Source: a virus
Virus record (IMG/VR): IMGVR_UViG_3300009774_000011
Location: 1 to 40,716 of that record
Strand: one strand, 5' to 3'
Length of the DNA stretch: 40,716 nt
Part shown: in pieces, positions 14,095 through 29,825 of the stretch
How the letters are laid out: each line of letters starts with the position of its first letter
Position numbering within the stretch: the first letter of the stretch is position 1
Notes under the pieces: generated by a model
What the model saw: the letters and a program-made list of their open reading frames with translations, nothing else
Databases searched by the model: none
Told to the model about the DNA's origin: nothing
Position numbers and translations under genes: made by a program

Positions 14095-14430
14095 CTATTT
14101 ATTTCTAAGTTTTTCTATTTCAATTTTTTCCTGAAGTATTTTTTTTAGTGCCGGTAGTATTTCCTGAGCAAATCTTTCAACAGAGTTATCTATTGATCTA
14201 CTATGAGCAATATAAGATAATCCTTGTGCTATCTTTTTACCAAAATACGATTCTTCCAATGACAAAAGAAATTCTTTGAAAGATTGCTTCCCAATACTTC
14301 TCCATGCAAATGAGAAGTTTCCATAATCTGTAACTGAGCCGAAAAATCCGTCGGATGTAATAACTACCTGTCCTAACCAACTACCGTCCGGGTTCTCTAA
14401 CCGATAGCTTTGTGCTTTAATTTCATGCAT
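14095..14430 (-). CDS. Hypothetical early phage protein
   Basis: The 111-aa product has a beta-hairpin-like N-terminal half (SYRLENPDGSWLGQVVITSD, FSFAWRSIG) and a C-terminal helix ending EKIEIEKLRNK. It resembles small phage proteins often found with DNA-modification or replication genes in Bacteroidota phages, which is a resemblance in layout only. It lies between the adenine methyltransferase and two other unknown genes of the operon. Confidence 0.55.
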   Translation of the reverse strand: MHEIKAQSYRLENPDGSWLGQVVITSDGFFGSVTDYGNFSFAWRSIGKQSFKEFLLSLEESYFGKKIAQGLSYIAHSRSIDNSVERFAQEILPALKKILQEKIEIEKLRNK

Positions 14431-14463
14431 ATATTATTTTTAAAAATGGTTTTTCGTCTTTAT

Positions 14464-14964
14464 TTAGATTAAGTCAAATACTTTAAATTCAGTTTCATTA
14501 GGATAACCTTTTTCCAACTCAAATACACAGGTCTGAATGCGGGCATATTGAAAAGTTTTACGAGGAAGTGACGTGATTGATTTCAATCCGAATTCTTTTA
14601 AAAATCTTAATCTTACATCTGAATCTAAAATTGTAAACCAAGGCATTAATGCAATAATATGATCAGACATTTTCATGCATTCCATTAATATGTAATATCC
14701 GAGGCGCAAACCTTTAATATCAAGATCTTCCGGAATACCAAAAGCATATTTTGTGGCAAATGGTGGATTCATAACTATACAATCAAAATGGTCAGTTGAT
14801 AAATTAAAGAAATTATCCGGAGCAGTAACATCGTAATTATCTAAATAGCTAACTATATTACCAATACCCGGTGTTGGTTCTAAAATGGTTTTACAATGTC
14901 CTGGAATTAATGAAGCCATATATTCGGCTACAATTTTTGGTGTTTGAAATTCGGTTTTATACAT
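14464..14964 (-). CDS. Phage N6-adenine DNA methyltransferase
   Basis: This 166-aa minimal methyltransferase shows SAM-binding motif I as ILEPTPGIGNIVSYL (about residues 26-40), an acidic residue after the next strand, and the catalytic motif IV as CIVMNPPFATKY (about 63-74). There is no target-recognition domain, as in small Dam-like phage enzymes. It probably methylates phage DNA against host restriction or helps control replication. It follows the primase-helicase by 10 bp in the same operon. Confidence 0.8.
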   Translation of the reverse strand: MYKTEFQTPKIVAEYMASLIPGHCKTILEPTPGIGNIVSYLDNYDVTAPDNFFNLSTDHFDCIVMNPPFATKYAFGIPEDLDIKGLRLGYYILMECMKMSDHIIALMPWFTILDSDVRLRFLKEFGLKSITSLPRKTFQYARIQTCVFELEKGYPNETEFKVFDLI

Positions 14965-18746: not shown

Positions 18747-19061
18747 TTAAGTAAATTGATACGTTTTATTATTTCCAGTTCCGAATTTCTGAGGCTTAAT
18801 TGTAGTTGTAAATGGAAAATCAGCCTTATTTACTTTATCTAATGCATCTTTAATTGGTTTTGCATTGGTAAAGAATTTCCGTTCTATATTTTCAAAACGT
18901 ATTCGAACAACATACCTACCTTCGCCAAATTGCGTTTTCACATCGGGGGCATAATCAAGTACTTGAATTTCGCAGTTGGTCACATCTGTGATTGATATTT
19001 GTTGTACCGGAAATATATTTTTTTCTTCAGGCTTTATGCCTAAGTCAGAGAATTTCTTCAT
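18747..19061 (-). CDS. Small beta-rich protein overlapping the DGR reverse transcriptase
   Basis: The product is 104 aa from the ATG at 19061 (MKKFSDLG). The body has alternating strands (ITDVTNCEIQVLDYAPDVKT, GEGRYVVRIRFENIERKFFT) consistent with an OB-like fold, and the end is KTYQFT. Its start lies inside the last 17 bp of the reverse transcriptase gene, so the two are translationally coupled. No avd gene is seen in the cassette, so this is a candidate accessory factor, but it may equally be an ssDNA-binding replication protein. Confidence 0.6.
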   Translation of the reverse strand: MKKFSDLGIKPEEKNIFPVQQISITDVTNCEIQVLDYAPDVKTQFGEGRYVVRIRFENIERKFFTNAKPIKDALDKVNKADFPFTTTIKPQKFGTGNNKTYQFT

Positions 19062-20031
19062 TTTTAAGTATCTTTTTTTGTAAGTGTTTCGAATCACAGT
19101 GTTTTGCCCAGCCCAAATGTGGAGCAATCTGCATTTTATATTGTTTCATGTCCAGGTCTTTTTTGTTGAGTTTTGCAGCCTTTCTGCAAAATCGCACTTT
19201 AATTGATTTACGCATTAAAATGTGCGTGTGTCTGAATACATATCCTACAAAGTCTATTCCCCTGGCATCAACCGGAAAGACCTGGTAATTACCTTTAATT
19301 TGCAGGTTCAATTTAGTAGTCATGTAATTATTTATCTCTGTTAACAATGCATGTAAATAGTTCTTATCCGGTGCCAGTATCACAATATCATCTGCATATC
19401 TGTAGTAATATTTAACCCTTTTTTCTTCTTTCATATAATGATCGAAATATGATAGATATAAATTTGCAAAGAACTGCGATAAGTAGTTCCCGATTGGAAC
19501 TCCGGGAGCTGAGTCAATTATACCGTCGATCAGATTTAAAAGCTTTACATCCTTAATTTTCTTTCGGATAATACTTTTCAGTATCTCGTGATCAATTGTG
19601 GGGTAAAACTTCTTAATATCAAGTTTCAGACAGTAAATTGTGTTTTCAACATCCTTTAAATCCCGTTTAATCGCATTTAAAACTCCGTGGATACCTTTTC
19701 CCTTTATGCATGCATAACTCTGCGAAATAAAGACTGAAACCCATATAGGCTCCATGATATTCATAATAGCATGATGAACAACCCGATCTTTAAATGGCAA
19801 CCTGAATATCTCGCGTTCTTTGGGTTCATAAATTTTAAACACGCTATACTCCGAAGTTCTATAATTACCCGATATCAACTCTTCATACAATTGATTAATG
19901 TTCCGTTCAACATTTTTTTCGAAAATCTTTACTCCATATTGCCCGGATTTACCTTTCCGGGCTTTCTGGTATGCAAGCATCAAATTGTCTTTTGTAACTA
20001 CTTTGTCAAATAAATTATTTTTTCTTTTCAT
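19045..20031 (-). CDS. DGR reverse transcriptase
   Basis: This 328-aa enzyme starts at ATG 20031 (MKRKNNLFDK). It has the seven-motif RT core: LPFKDRVVHHAI at 78-89, catalytic LDIKKFYPTID at 137-147 (Asp138), GVPIGNYLSQFFANLYL at 177-193 (the IGxxxSQ form typical of DGR and related group II intron-type RTs) and YRYADD at 210-215 with the catalytic Asp pair. It has no maturase or endonuclease domain. It copies the TR RNA with A-directed errors and sends the cDNA to the VRs. The TR lies about 100 bp upstream. The downstream gene starts inside its end. Confidence 0.93.
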   Translation of the reverse strand: MKRKNNLFDKVVTKDNLMLAYQKARKGKSGQYGVKIFEKNVERNINQLYEELISGNYRTSEYSVFKIYEPKEREIFRLPFKDRVVHHAIMNIMEPIWVSVFISQSYACIKGKGIHGVLNAIKRDLKDVENTIYCLKLDIKKFYPTIDHEILKSIIRKKIKDVKLLNLIDGIIDSAPGVPIGNYLSQFFANLYLSYFDHYMKEEKRVKYYYRYADDIVILAPDKNYLHALLTEINNYMTTKLNLQIKGNYQVFPVDARGIDFVGYVFRHTHILMRKSIKVRFCRKAAKLNKKDLDMKQYKMQIAPHLGWAKHCDSKHLQKKILKNEEIL

Positions 20032-20132
20032 AAGCCTGGCTTTCAAAAATGGAGCTTTCTCAATATGATACTAACACCTGTGAAAGATTAGTCATTTTTT
20101 GCTAAGAAGCAAGGCCTTTGTCTTTTTATTAC

Positions 20133-20210
20133 CAGATGAGAACTGGAACCTGCATTCGAATTCGTATTATCGTAATTCGTATTGTTCAAACCGAACGCTG
20201 AAGCAGAACC
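20133..20210 (-). repeat. DGR template repeat (TR)
   Basis: This 78-bp non-coding repeat matches VR2 over 78 bp and VR1 over 75 bp. Read on the minus strand it is loaded with AAC, AAT, ACG and TAC triplets, so adenine change would mainly replace Asn, Thr and Tyr. Its last ~20 bp (GGTTCCAGTTCTCATCTG) differ from the VRs at fixed sites and would be the IMH* counterpart. It can be read as residues like those of the target proteins, so it probably derives from a third target copy. Confidence 0.95.
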
Positions 20211-20235
20211 AGCGAAGACAAACAGCCTTTTATTA

Positions 20236-20607
20236 TTATCCTAATTGAACACCTTTCCAAACATCCACAAATTGAGTTGCAGAATATTCGGCAGTTTCTT
20301 CGTCAATATTTTGCAGGCGAGAACCGGAACCCGCAGTCGAACCCGCAATAACGAAATTCGTATTGCCCAAACCGAACGCCGAAGCAGACATTCTAAACCA
20401 TGGACGCCATTTCAATTCATTGCGATTATCCCAATCTGGTTTTTTACCATCGTTTAATGCTTCAGTTAATACAACCGCATTATAAGTACTTTCAAAATAC
20501 ACTCTTAAATCTTCGGGAACATTTGAGAAGTCAACTTGTGGTCTACCTGTAGCCTGAAATGCATCTTCTACAGTTTGGATTTTTTCTAAATTTGGATTTT
20601 TTTTCAT
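20236..20607 (-). CDS. DGR target protein 1
   Basis: The product is 123 aa from the ATG at 20607 (MKKNPNLEKI). A VEDAFQATGRP segment and an FSNVPEDLRVYFESTYNAVV helix precede a W-x-PWF motif. Residues 74-98 are the VR, with SASAFGL at the front and GSGSRL at the end. A helical tail ends KGVQLG. It lacks the usual C-type lectin or immunoglobulin fold signature of DGR targets. Its paralogue is 22 bp upstream. The fold appears in small proteins of Bacteroidota phages by my recollection; ligand unknown. Confidence 0.85.
   Translation of the reverse strand: MKKNPNLEKIQTVEDAFQATGRPQVDFSNVPEDLRVYFESTYNAVVLTEALNDGKKPDWDNRNELKWRPWFRMSASAFGLGNTNFVIAGSTAGSGSRLQNIDEETAEYSATQFVDVWKGVQLG
20314..20388 (-). 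repeat. Variable repeat 1 (VR1)
   Basis: Over 75 bp it has 14 differences from the TR: 13 at TR adenines (to G, T or C) and the shared T-to-C at the 3' end. It encodes residues 74-98 of target protein 1. The 3' 18 bp (GGTTCCGGTTCTCGCCTG) are identical to VR2 and form the likely initiation of mutagenic homing (IMH) site. Confidence 0.93.
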
Positions 20608-20629
20608 GTTTGTAATTTTTAATTGATTA

Positions 20630-21109
20630 TTAAAGTGATAACATTTCTCTGAATTCATTAATGAATTTTTCGCCGGCAATTTTCGCCCTTTTATCTTCAA
20701 GAAAACTCAGGCGAGAACCGGAACCCGCATGCGAAGCCGTAATATCGTAATGCGCACCGTCCAAACCGAACGCCGAAGCAGAACCGTTATTTACAAACCA
20801 GGGATAATGGCGACGCTGTGATTCATTGAAAAGATCAAATCTTTTTTTCTCATTCAAAGCTTCGGTAATAACCACACATTTGTAAGTTGCCTTAAAAAAG
20901 TCGCGTAAGTCTTCGGGGACGCAATTAAAATCAGGGACTGAAGGGCGACCAGTTTCATTCAGAGCATCCTCAAATGAGTTGATGCGATCTTCTACAGATA
21001 AAGAGAAAAACTCTTTTCCGAAGGTGTCTTCTAACATGGATTTAAATTCAGGTGAAGCCGTTTGATAAAGACTTCTTGCTTTTGATTCTTCCAATTGTAC
21101 TTGTTTCAT
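20630..21109 (-). CDS. DGR target protein 2
   Basis: This 159-aa paralogue of target 1 has an extra N-terminal ~36 residues (ARSLYQTASPEFKSMLEDTF, then GKEFF) found in other Bacteroidota phage proteins. Then come FEDALNETGRP, CVPEDLRDFFKATYKCVVIT, YPWF, the VR at residues 109-134 and a helical tail ending FREMLSL. Being the first gene of the cassette, it may be made most. No signal peptide or membrane segment is seen, so it acts in the cell or in the virion. Function unknown. Confidence 0.87.
   Translation of the reverse strand: MKQVQLEESKARSLYQTASPEFKSMLEDTFGKEFFSLSVEDRINSFEDALNETGRPSVPDFNCVPEDLRDFFKATYKCVVITEALNEKKRFDLFNESQRRHYPWFVNNGSASAFGLDGAHYDITASHAGSGSRLSFLEDKRAKIAGEKFINEFREMLSL
20708..20785 (-). 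repeat. Variable repeat 2 (VR2)
   Basis: A 78-bp match to the TR with 14 differences, 13 at TR adenines and one shared T-to-C near the 3' end. It encodes residues 109-134 of target protein 2. Its IMH-like 3' end matches VR1 exactly. Confidence 0.93.
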
Positions 21110-26106: not shown

Positions 26107-29076
26107 ATGGAACAAACAAAACATTTCTTTAATCAATTAAATTTCGACTTTGATAAAGAGTTAAAACCAATCCACATTTTCTTTGATAATGATACTGAGT
26201 TAAATCTAAAAACTCACAATAATATTTTCAGATACATACCTTTGAATGAAAAGACACAATGTACATTTACAGTTGTCGATATTCAAAATTTAAATACAGA
26301 TGAACTTTTTGAAGTAAGAAAATACATTTGGAATGAAAACAAAAGCGATTTGTTATTTCTTAAAAACAAAACACAATTCGACCTTTGTTATGCTTTCACT
26401 GACCCTCTTAAACAAATTGTATTAATAGATTCCTTTACTGGAGAAGAATCGGACTTAACTTTGTTAGAAAAAATTGGCAAAGACAATTTTGACACTGGAT
26501 TATTTTGGGAAGTTTATAAGGATGTTCAAGATAAAATCAAACAAAACAGACTAACCGTTGACAAAAGTTTAGTAAAGACACTTCGTTTTTTAAGGGAAAA
26601 ATTACAATTTGAATATGAAACAACTATTCCTAATAAGGAACTAAGAGACAATATAATTCAAGCATTAATTGATAGAACCCTATTTATCAAGTTTCTTGAA
26701 GATAAGCATATAATCAATTCTTTCTTTTATTACCATTTTTTTAAGGAAGAAACAACATATGTTGAACTTTTAAAATCAAACAAATATGATTTAATCAACG
26801 ACTTATTTAACATAATAAATAAGATATTTAACAACTCCCTTTTTGAATCACCTCGAATTCCCCAAAATTATCTTTTAGAATCAACTCTGAAACTTATTGC
26901 AGATGCTTTAGAAAGAAAAGATTTTGAAACTGGACAACTTTCCTTATTTGGTTACAGGTTCGATATTATTCCCACAGAATTTATTGGGCATGTATATGAA
27001 ATGTTTTTTGATGAAAGTCAATCAGATAATGGAATTTTTTATACACCTGAAGGACTTGCTAAATTAATCGTTAATGAGACTATCTCTAATACAGGAAAGA
27101 TATTAGATCCGTCTTGCGGTTCAGGAATGTTTTTAGTTGTAGCTTTACGCAAGCTTTTAGAAAATGAGCAACTTTTAAGTTCTTCTAAAGTTGAAGACAT
27201 ACCGAAAAGGAATAAAATTTTATGTAATTATATTTTTGGTATTGAAAAACAAGAGAATGCAAGAAGATTATGTATATTATCATTATATTTAGAACTTTTA
27301 TCAGGTATTAATCCCGATGAATTAAAAGAATACATAAAAAATAAGATTTCATCAGATAAAGATTTTAAAGTATTTCCTTATGACTTCACATCCAATATAG
27401 TACATTCAAACGCCTTAGAAGTTCAATCTATTAATCATATAAATGATTTCGAATATATTATAGGGAATCCTCCCTTTCTACAAATAAAAGAAAAAGAAGA
27501 AGAGGAGTTATTTTGGAAAAAACATGAAGATACTGTTAGTAATAGACAATTATCTCAATGCTTTTTTATAAAAATAAAGGAATGGTGCAATGATAAAACA
27601 AAATTAGGATTTGTATCAAATCTTTCAAATTTTAACAGTGACTCATCGATTAAATTTCAAAACTTTTTCTTCACTCATTATTGCATATCTAAGTTTTATA
27701 ATCTTACAGAAGTTAAATCTATATTATTTGAAAATGCAAATGAAAGCACAGCTGTAATTCTTTTCTCAAATGGTTATTTAGAAAATAATGAGCTCCTGTT
27801 TTTAACACCTCATCTAACTGCATTTTCAAAATTATTCAAAATCATTTTATTAAGAGATGATGATCTTGTACGTATAAAACAAAATGATTTAAAAGACGAA
27901 GTAGTAACATTAAGAGATTATTTTTCAGGAGATTTAAATGATTTGATGTTGGCTGATAAAATATATAATCAATGTATTTCATTTAGTGAGTATTTAATGC
28001 CAGATGCAGTGAGTTCAACTCAATTTGATATAAATAACGGAATTCAGATATTTGGAAAAAAAAGCACTCCTCCTGATTGGAAAAACTATTCAAAGGTTTC
28101 CAAAAAAGAATTCAAGAAAAATTATCTAAATGATTTCACTAAACCAGTAAAAGATTCTAATCATAATATCCCTTATTTGGAATGTTCAAATATTGATTCA
28201 TTCCAAATAAAAGGTAAATTTTTATATTTTGAATCAAATATTGAGAAATATAAAAAAGTATTTGAAAGAGTTCGTGTCAATGAAGATTATATTGGAAAAA
28301 GAATCTTATTTCCAAGAATTGGGAATCAAATCAGGGCAGTATATATTGAAAAACCGACATATTATTGCTTTGATATTTTTTCAATTAGACTTAAGGATGA
28401 TAATAACTATTTTTTGATATTAGCATTGCTTAATTCAAGTTTAATGAATTATTATTTAACTATCAAACATAGAAAGAGATTAAGTGATTCATATCCTAAA
28501 ATCACGATGAATGATATTCTAAAACTTCCTATACCAATAATATATGATGAAACATTAATAAATGATATTTCAAATTTAGCGAAGAATCTTACTTATGGAC
28601 ATTTGTCTTTTGAACAACACAAGAACAATCTTGATGATTTAATTTTTGATTTATATGGATTGAATAACTTTGAGAAACAACGAGTTAAGGATTTTTCAAT
28701 AAAAACACAAAAAGTTTCAGTACAAAACATGAATGATTATATATACTCATTCATGGAAGTTGTCAAACATCATTTGAGACCTAAAATTGATATTAGAATT
28801 TCTCAATATTCCGATAGAAAATTGAAATCAAGCTTCATTGGAGTAAAGTTTGAATTTTTGTCTGGAAATTCTCAAAATATTAATCCTGAAACCGTCGTTA
28901 ATTATAGTTTAATCAAGCTATTAATGGAGATCGGAAATAAAAATATACATACAATAAAAAGCAAAATTTATGGTGAAAATAGTCTTTTTATAATTCGCGA
29001 AAACGAGTTAAAAAACTGGTCAAATTCAAAAGCATTTACAGATGCTAAAGAATTCCTAAAAGATATAATAAAATAA
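26107..29076 (+). CDS. Type II N6-adenine DNA methyltransferase (Eco57I-like)
   Basis: The product is 989 aa. A helical N-terminal ~300 residues ends in YEMFFDESQSDNGIFYTPEG. Then come SAM motif I ILDPSCGSGMFLVV near residue 333 and catalytic motif IV IIGNPPFLQ near 453. The C-terminal half is the target-recognition domain (KSNYYLTIKH-type region near 780). No nuclease motif is seen. The downstream 249-aa gene shares one base of its stop codon (TAATG), so the pair is coupled. It methylates host DNA to protect it from the partner enzyme. Codons are very A/T-rich. Confidence 0.85.
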   Translation: MEQTKHFFNQLNFDFDKELKPIHIFFDNDTELNLKTHNNIFRYIPLNEKTQCTFTVVDIQNLNTDELFEVRKYIWNENKSDLLFLKNKTQFDLCYAFTDPLKQIVLIDSFTGEESDLTLLEKIGKDNFDTGLFWEVYKDVQDKIKQNRLTVDKSLVKTLRFLREKLQFEYETTIPNKELRDNIIQALIDRTLFIKFLEDKHIINSFFYYHFFKEETTYVELLKSNKYDLINDLFNIINKIFNNSLFESPRIPQNYLLESTLKLIADALERKDFETGQLSLFGYRFDIIPTEFIGHVYEMFFDESQSDNGIFYTPEGLAKLIVNETISNTGKILDPSCGSGMFLVVALRKLLENEQLLSSSKVEDIPKRNKILCNYIFGIEKQENARRLCILSLYLELLSGINPDELKEYIKNKISSDKDFKVFPYDFTSNIVHSNALEVQSINHINDFEYIIGNPPFLQIKEKEEEELFWKKHEDTVSNRQLSQCFFIKIKEWCNDKTKLGFVSNLSNFNSDSSIKFQNFFFTHYCISKFYNLTEVKSILFENANESTAVILFSNGYLENNELLFLTPHLTAFSKLFKIILLRDDDLVRIKQNDLKDEVVTLRDYFSGDLNDLMLADKIYNQCISFSEYLMPDAVSSTQFDINNGIQIFGKKSTPPDWKNYSKVSKKEFKKNYLNDFTKPVKDSNHNIPYLECSNIDSFQIKGKFLYFESNIEKYKKVFERVRVNEDYIGKRILFPRIGNQIRAVYIEKPTYYCFDIFSIRLKDDNNYFLILALLNSSLMNYYLTIKHRKRLSDSYPKITMNDILKLPIPIIYDETLINDISNLAKNLTYGHLSFEQHKNNLDDLIFDLYGLNNFEKQRVKDFSIKTQKVSVQNMNDYIYSFMEVVKHHLRPKIDIRISQYSDRKLKSSFIGVKFEFLSGNSQNINPETVVNYSLIKLLMEIGNKNIHTIKSKIYGENSLFIIRENELKNWSNSKAFTDAKEFLKDIIK

Positions 29077-29825
29077 TGGGTGTAACATTTCTTCATATAG
29101 AATCAGAAAAATATGCTGGAGAGCTTGACGCACTTTCTAAAATCTCTTCTATTTTAAAAGACTCAGGTTTAAAAAGAAATGATAAATTTTGGACTGAGTT
29201 AATTATGACTTTTTTTAAAGATTTATACGAAAATATGTCGCATGATGAAAAATCAATTCTACAGAATAAAAATGAGAGAGAAATAAAAGAATTTATTAGA
29301 CGAAAGCTGGAATTAAATAAAAGTTTTTCAGAAAATTATCTTTTAATAGTTGATTTGGAAACACAAAACAGTCATTCTAAATTATTAGGATATTACGATG
29401 TTAAGGTTAGAAGTAGTTGCTGGAATAGTTATTTCACATTTGAATGCAAATGCCTAGATAATACTGCATTTTCAATATCGGAATATGTATATAATCCCAA
29501 TAAAAACAGTAAAAATAAGGGAAAATACGAAGATGGAGGCATGTATCGGTTTTTGATAAATAAGTATTCAACCAATTTAAATTTTGGAGGTATGATAGGA
29601 TTTTTACAAAAAGGAAGTTTAAAAACAACTAAAAAGTCAATTTGTAATCAAATCCAAAGTCTATGCTTAATAGATAGTGACATTGAATTTGGTAATTTAA
29701 TTGGAATTTGTGATACTATTGATGAATATATCTTCTTTACAGATCATAACAGGTATGATATTATTGAAAAAAAACAATGCGGATCTATCAAACTTCATCA
29801 TCTTATTTATGACTTTACGGCTTAA
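29076..29825 (+). CDS. PD-(D/E)XK-like restriction endonuclease candidate
   Basis: The product is 249 aa. It has a helical N-terminus, then a nuclease-like core with Asp near residue 107 (GYYDVKVRSS) and ECK at about 122 (YFTFECKCLD), the D...ExK pattern of PD-(D/E)XK enzymes. Coupling with the methylase gene is by TAATG overlap, and size is normal for a Type II enzyme. The family is not one I can name, and the specificity is unknown. Together with the methylase it likely blocks foreign phage DNA. Confidence 0.65.
   Translation: MGVTFLHIESEKYAGELDALSKISSILKDSGLKRNDKFWTELIMTFFKDLYENMSHDEKSILQNKNEREIKEFIRRKLELNKSFSENYLLIVDLETQNSHSKLLGYYDVKVRSSCWNSYFTFECKCLDNTAFSISEYVYNPNKNSKNKGKYEDGGMYRFLINKYSTNLNFGGMIGFLQKGSLKTTKKSICNQIQSLCLIDSDIEFGNLIGICDTIDEYIFFTDHNRYDIIEKKQCGSIKLHHLIYDFTA

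Follow-up and report, generated by a model that had tools for sequence, protein, structure and literature searches.

A diversity-generating retroelement with two small tandem targets and a reverse transcriptase-associated partner gene in a Bacteroidota-phage lineage

Diversity-generating retroelements (DGRs) of phages are mostly viewed as tail-diversifying devices, which usually work with an Avd helper. In Bordetella phage BPP-1, whose cassette comprises mtd, avd, the template repeat (TR) and brt, the direction of transfer is set by the IMH/IMH* pair. Avd is common in DGRs but not universal, and the known DGR accessory proteins that have been named are Avd, HRDC and MSL (PMC10053308). The activity of the hankyphage DGR has been measured, and its adenine mutagenesis was demonstrated experimentally (PMC12135933). 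DGRs with several variable repeats (VRs), in which one TR feeds several paralogous targets, account for about 13-29% of DGRs (Schillinger 2012, PMC3521204; Yan 2019, PMC6642488; discussed in Baykov 2023, PMC10743442). Moreover, a 2025 Nature survey described a second VR, distal and close to counter-defence genes, in four prophage species (PMC12629997). The locus presented here lies in the virus record IMGVR_UViG_3300009774_000011, the whole of which, 40,716 nt, was analysed and is called the window below. Its cassette is a real and complete DGR, which, judged by its sequence, is very probably functional. The surprise is not the DGR itself but the small tandem targets, found outside the tail module throughout the clade, and the partner of the reverse transcriptase (RT).

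Read on the minus strand, the cassette runs from target A through target B, TR and RT to a small partner gene that overlaps the RT (Table 1). The RT, the TR and both VRs are intact, as the earlier note had stated, and all of its counts were reproduced by the TR/VR comparison. All reading frames of the cassette are open. The interval it gave, 19045-21109, covers the DGR and misses the partner gene. A search of the whole 40.7-kb record found no copies of the TR beyond the two VRs.

Table 1. Features of the DGR cassette, with positions in the window.
Feature	Position	Strand	Description
Target gene A	20630..21109	-	159 aa; VR near 3' end; relative of PHROG_11581
Variable repeat A (VR-A), 75-nt core	20708..20782	-	
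Target gene B	20236..20604	-	122 aa; paralogue of A without N-terminal extension
Variable repeat B (VR-B), 75-nt core	20314..20388	-	
IMH-like block of VR-A	20708..20728	-	GCGGGTTCCGGTTCTCGCCTG; fixed in VRs, different in TR
IMH-like block of VR-B	20314..20334	-	Same sequence as VR-A block
Template repeat (TR)	20133..20207	-	75 nt; 20 adenines; rich in AAY codons (NNTNYDNTNSN)
Structured RNA, TR-RT interval	20017..20116	-	Resembles Rfam RF03020 RT-17; compensatory changes
DGR reverse transcriptase (RT)	19045..20028	-	327 aa
DGR partner gene	18747..19061	-	104 aa; PHROG_19665; predicted OB-fold topology; 17-nt overlap with RT 3' end

The RT matches Pfam RVT_1 and the PHROG RT family PHROG_1423 (E 3e-127), and carries the motifs PIGNYLSQ (IGxxxSQ) and YRYADDI (YADD). 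Its best match among solved structures is 8ub7 (E 4e-55), which we take to be a Bordetella-type DGR RT; the next matches are non-DGR, group II intron-type RTs at about 3e-19. Together with the adenine mismatches between TR and VRs, these features support the identification as a DGR. The hosts of relatives with genomes are nearly all Bacteroidota, with one in Ignavibacteria, and the best match is from Paludibacter (72%). The DGR belongs to a Bacteroidota-phage lineage.

The number of targets was determined in 72 non-redundant cassettes with an RT at least 53% identical and enough upstream sequence. Two targets are present in 54 of them, three in 13 and a single one in 5, which gives two or three in 67/72; among more distant cassettes 10/11 have a single target, mostly with longer repeats of about 110 nt. 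The targets of the clade are about 120-160 aa long, and the first one is extended by about 30 residues at its N terminus. A quick tree was built from 158 targets and contains many open forks; on it the position in the cassette needs 31 changes, compared with 62.9 after shuffling, and within the window's own group the two positions form separate groups with 99-100% support. Since the tree separates the two positions, the target pair is old and was inherited together. A recent duplication as the origin of the two targets was rejected by the same tree, L097 excepted; that cassette holds three targets, two of which are near-identical and represent a recent duplication within the cassette. Two paralogous targets under one TR had been proposed earlier as two versions diversified at once. 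The paralogy was confirmed, and "two versions" of one gene does not describe paralogues that were inherited separately for so long. The targets match only PHROG_11581, a family to which no function is assigned, and sequence searches of Pfam and PDB gave no usable relatives. In the model of target A, the N-terminal part is helical and confident, followed by the VR at low confidence (pLDDT about 53) and then by further helices. This model returned neither a fold match nor a C-lec match from the PDB, and its fold matches in the viral library were uncharacterised phage proteins only.

The neighbourhood of the cassettes is a further indication of what the targets may do. In the window, a CHC2 primase gene flanks the cassette at one end, and an HNH gene and regulators flank it at the other; in relatives the flanking genes encode a transposition protein, methyltransferases, SbcC-like and RecT-like proteins, a helicase, exonucleases, primase and DnaB. 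The scan of 20 flanking proteins yielded three head or head-maturation proteins and no tail protein. Because the targets are small, show no visible signal peptide or tail homology and lie among regulatory and DNA-metabolism genes, they may be intracellular proteins of early infection rather than tail adhesins, and variable host factors are possibly what they act against. The principal alternative is an ordinary tail-adsorption DGR, whose targets would be tail-tip or accessory virion proteins, diversified for host range like those of BPP-1 and hankyphage. Such a role would agree with phage DGR targets being mostly tail proteins (PMC8144416), with the expectation of Roux et al. that uncharacterised VR domains are C-lec variants, and with phage Versailles, where one TR is shared by a 454-aa tail protein and a small protein, so that the VR surfaces may be alike. 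It is nevertheless considered unlikely, given the small size of the targets, the gene content around the cassettes described above and the location of the Versailles homologue in a replication/recombination module more than 40 kb from the tail target; the suggestion that the targets are tail proteins thus found no sign in its favour. It is quite possible, if not yet likely, that the whole DGR lineage no longer serves tail adhesins but diversifies small intracellular proteins of the early module, in pairs or triplets, which plausibly function in counter-defence or host takeover and have to follow variable host factors, and that it does so without Avd and with an OB-fold nucleic-acid-binding partner overlapping or fused to the RT. 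A clade devoted to small non-tail targets would make it testable what else phages diversify, and against what. Elsewhere in the window, positions 26107-29825 hold a 989-aa N6-methyltransferase of Eco57I/MmeI type with a TaqI-like specificity domain, followed by a 249-aa gene without assigned function; these are likely phage-carried restriction-modification genes.

The partner gene was found by profile search in 126/138 eligible relatives with RT identity of at least 53% and in 3/19 more distant ones. When loci were searched by the partner gene alone, with single partner proteins as queries, a DGR RT adjoined it in 51/52 loci; the sole locus with a partner gene but without a detectable DGR RT upstream is L222. 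In hankyphage p00, the RT is 434 aa long and its last 108 residues are the partner domain (E 1.5e-28), and RT-partner fusions are also present in L143, L124 and L050. Such C-terminal fusion of the RT to an OB-type partner domain spans several lineages (L143, L124, L050, L166). Two independent links, exclusive neighbourhood and fusion, therefore tie the partner to the RT. The structural model of the partner (pLDDT 90.5) has the beta-beta-beta-alpha-beta-beta order of an OB fold, and many of its top Foldseek matches are ssDNA-binding OB proteins (PrgE, Teb1, RPA, SSB), the best at E 0.07 and none significant alone. The protein is thus predicted to have OB-fold topology. Sequence searches of Pfam and PDB yielded no usable family and no homologue of known function, and neither the window record nor any of 19 related virus records gave a match to Avd (PF05635 family). 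A literature search on DGRs and OB folds returned nothing relevant, and a prior mention of the partner gene is possible. The 104-aa gene could also be an unrelated phage gene held beside the RT by operon structure alone, as overlaps are frequent among small phage genes and a homologue of known function was not found for it. This explanation is decidedly improbable, because the gene stays with the RT though the flanking genes are very different, adjoins an RT in nearly every locus found independently of the RT, and is fused to it in at least four cases, one of them a phage with an experimentally active DGR. A true RT partner, which probably acts with the RT in cDNA synthesis, is the preferred interpretation. 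An OB-fold-type partner would be a concrete candidate for an RNA- or cDNA-handling factor where Avd is absent, and since DGR activity is measurable in hankyphage, its role can be examined there.

The interval between TR and RT appears to encode a conserved structured RNA that resembles RT-17. The window copy scores 33.4 bits (E 6e-4) against Rfam RF03020 RT-17, below the gathering score of 40.4, and 7/15 relatives exceed the gathering score at the same place. The RT-n RNAs were reportedly described by Weinberg et al. in 2017. Compensatory changes were found in 3/4 pairs of the first hairpin by RNAalifold on a MAFFT alignment, which found that hairpin only. The second stem, around UGGUA...GAA, covaries as well, in a comparison whose arms were chosen for pairing, so that the shuffle control favours this stem. 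A GC-rich hairpin or cruciform of the BPP-1 kind after the VRs was not found beyond chance, since the stems there, of 3 and 5 bp, do not exceed those of shuffled sequence; the distant single-target relatives do have hairpins of 7-10 bp after the VR.

Over the 75-nt core with its 20 TR adenines, each VR has 14 mismatches to the TR, 13 at adenines and one T->C; 18/20 TR adenines are changed in at least one VR, and the two VRs differ from each other at 11 positions, every one at a TR adenine. These counts agree exactly with those given earlier. The hypergeometric P for the adenine bias is 7.7e-9 for each VR against the TR and 3.4e-8 for VR against VR. Both VRs lie near the 3' end of their genes in an open frame, with about 25 codons following. 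Contrary to the earlier assumption, not all of the adenine differences can be attributed to mutagenesis. In ten close relatives, the TR adenines A8, A56, A63 and A70 (0-based core positions) are G in all 20 VRs, and core position 71 likewise differs from the TR in 20/20 VRs; in one relative, L006, the TR too has G at position 8. Because randomisation of adenines would not yield the same base in 20/20 VRs, these are fixed TR/VR differences, and an origin of all 13 adenine differences per VR by mutagenesis was rejected. The adenine mutagenesis claimed by the earlier note is real, and 4/13 adenine differences per VR, together with the T, are fixed marks. After the fixed positions are removed, 16 mutable adenines are left, 14/16 of which differ in at least one VR, and the mutagenesis signal then appears as about 9 changes per VR. 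The fixed 3' differences, at core positions 56, 63, 70 and 71, fall within the block GCGGGTTCCGGTTCTCGCCTG, which occurs at the two VRs only. They resemble an IMH/IMH* pair, and a corresponding function may be supposed.

The activity of the DGR was assessed by comparing contigs with 99.8-100% identical RTs. By design the TR/VR finder prefers adenine-only pairs; the non-adenine counts that it gave were therefore excluded as evidence, and the pairwise comparison of relatives was used. One pair (L061/L062) has 13 differences in 2.6 kb, all at TR-adenine sites of one VR, with 0 elsewhere; two others have 6 (L089/L090) and 5 (L015/L017), again all at TR-adenine sites of VRs and 0 elsewhere. In the remaining pairs, 12 TR-adenine VR differences were accompanied by 1 outside (L058/L065), 20 across both VRs by 4 outside (L013/L014), and 9 by 2 at other VR positions and 1 outside (L060/L062). 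Overall, neither clonal VRs nor many non-adenine differences were found, 5-20 TR-adenine VR sites differing between near-identical relatives versus 0-2 other VR differences. Since nearly all differences between these relatives fall on TR adenines inside VRs, the DGR lineage is active. Where active or recently active mutagenesis had been claimed for this virus, recent activity is therefore seen in relatives, and the virus itself may be expected to share it. A decayed or inactive DGR, whose TR/VR differences would be a fossil of past mutagenesis, is suggested by two relatives without detectable TR/VR pairs (L092 and L093) and is hardly credible in view of the open frames, the 0 random non-adenine differences outside the fixed block and the variation of close relatives almost solely at TR adenines of VRs. 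The RTs of L092 and L093 are 74% identical to the window RT, yet neither a TR/VR pair nor a partner gene was detected nearby, and they may be decayed or rearranged cassettes.

The mechanism that can be proposed builds on what the sequence provides, namely the parts, their adenine specificity, the recent activity in relatives, the association and fusion of RT and partner, the RNA structure and the gene context. A transcript spanning the TR and the RT-17-like structured RNA that follows it would serve as the template for the RT. The RT would copy it into cDNA randomised at template adenines, probably with the small OB-fold-type partner, and the cDNA would replace the VR in either of the two small paralogous genes just upstream. 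The fixed 3' differences between TR and VRs would give the transfer its direction, like the IMH/IMH* pair of BPP-1. We consider it highly probable that these elements together constitute a Bacteroidota-phage DGR with a TR and structured RNA, an RT with a probable partner, and two small, presumably intracellular targets, whose function is suggested by context and homology.

Compared with the known systems, the window cassette differs from BPP-1 in having two small non-tail targets, in a record without detected Avd and with an OB-fold-type partner encoded downstream of the RT, in the missing GC-rich hairpin after the VRs and in its short, 75-nt repeat. Like Rfam RT-17, the RNA that separates TR and RT has a hairpin and a second stem bearing UGGUA...GAA, whereas the window copy stays below the gathering threshold and the TR-RT spacer position of RT-17 comes from the loci analysed here; an earlier mention of it is possible. 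Hankyphage p00 (BK010646) is likewise a Bacteroidota temperate phage with the same partner domain, but there this domain is fused to the RT C-terminus, and a single, very large C-lec tail target is served by repeats of 116-117 nt (PMC6199706). In the crAss-like phage cr60_1 (NC_055891; L168, L169), a target-like small gene (14118-14525) and the TR at the RT have 63 nt in common, with 14 adenine and 2 other mismatches, and the gene is possibly a remote target. In contrast to the surveyed multi-VR DGRs, the window clade as a rule has two or three targets in tandem (67/72), and they are small. The closest counterparts are found in Versailles and LoVEphage, which have a small second target related to those of the window and placed outside the tail module. 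In Versailles (ON453897, 10181-10762 and 52388-53749; L167, L170, L172), one TR serves a tail target beside the RT and a small remote target in the replication/recombination module; over 107 nt, the TR beside the RT and the small gene, which lies more than 40 kb away, mismatch at 14 adenines and at no other base. LoVEphage (OY725593; L163, L171, L173) follows the same two-target design, its RT appearing split in the record, and its remote VR, compared over 112 nt, has mismatches at 11 adenines and none elsewhere. In both phages, which each also have a local tail target, the small gene is a remote extra target of a tail DGR, whereas in the window a whole cassette serves two such genes in tandem beside the TR. 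Since the homologues of its targets are remote second targets in Versailles and LoVEphage, the window cassette is a DGR devoted to the kind of target that these Bacteroides phages carry as a remote second one.
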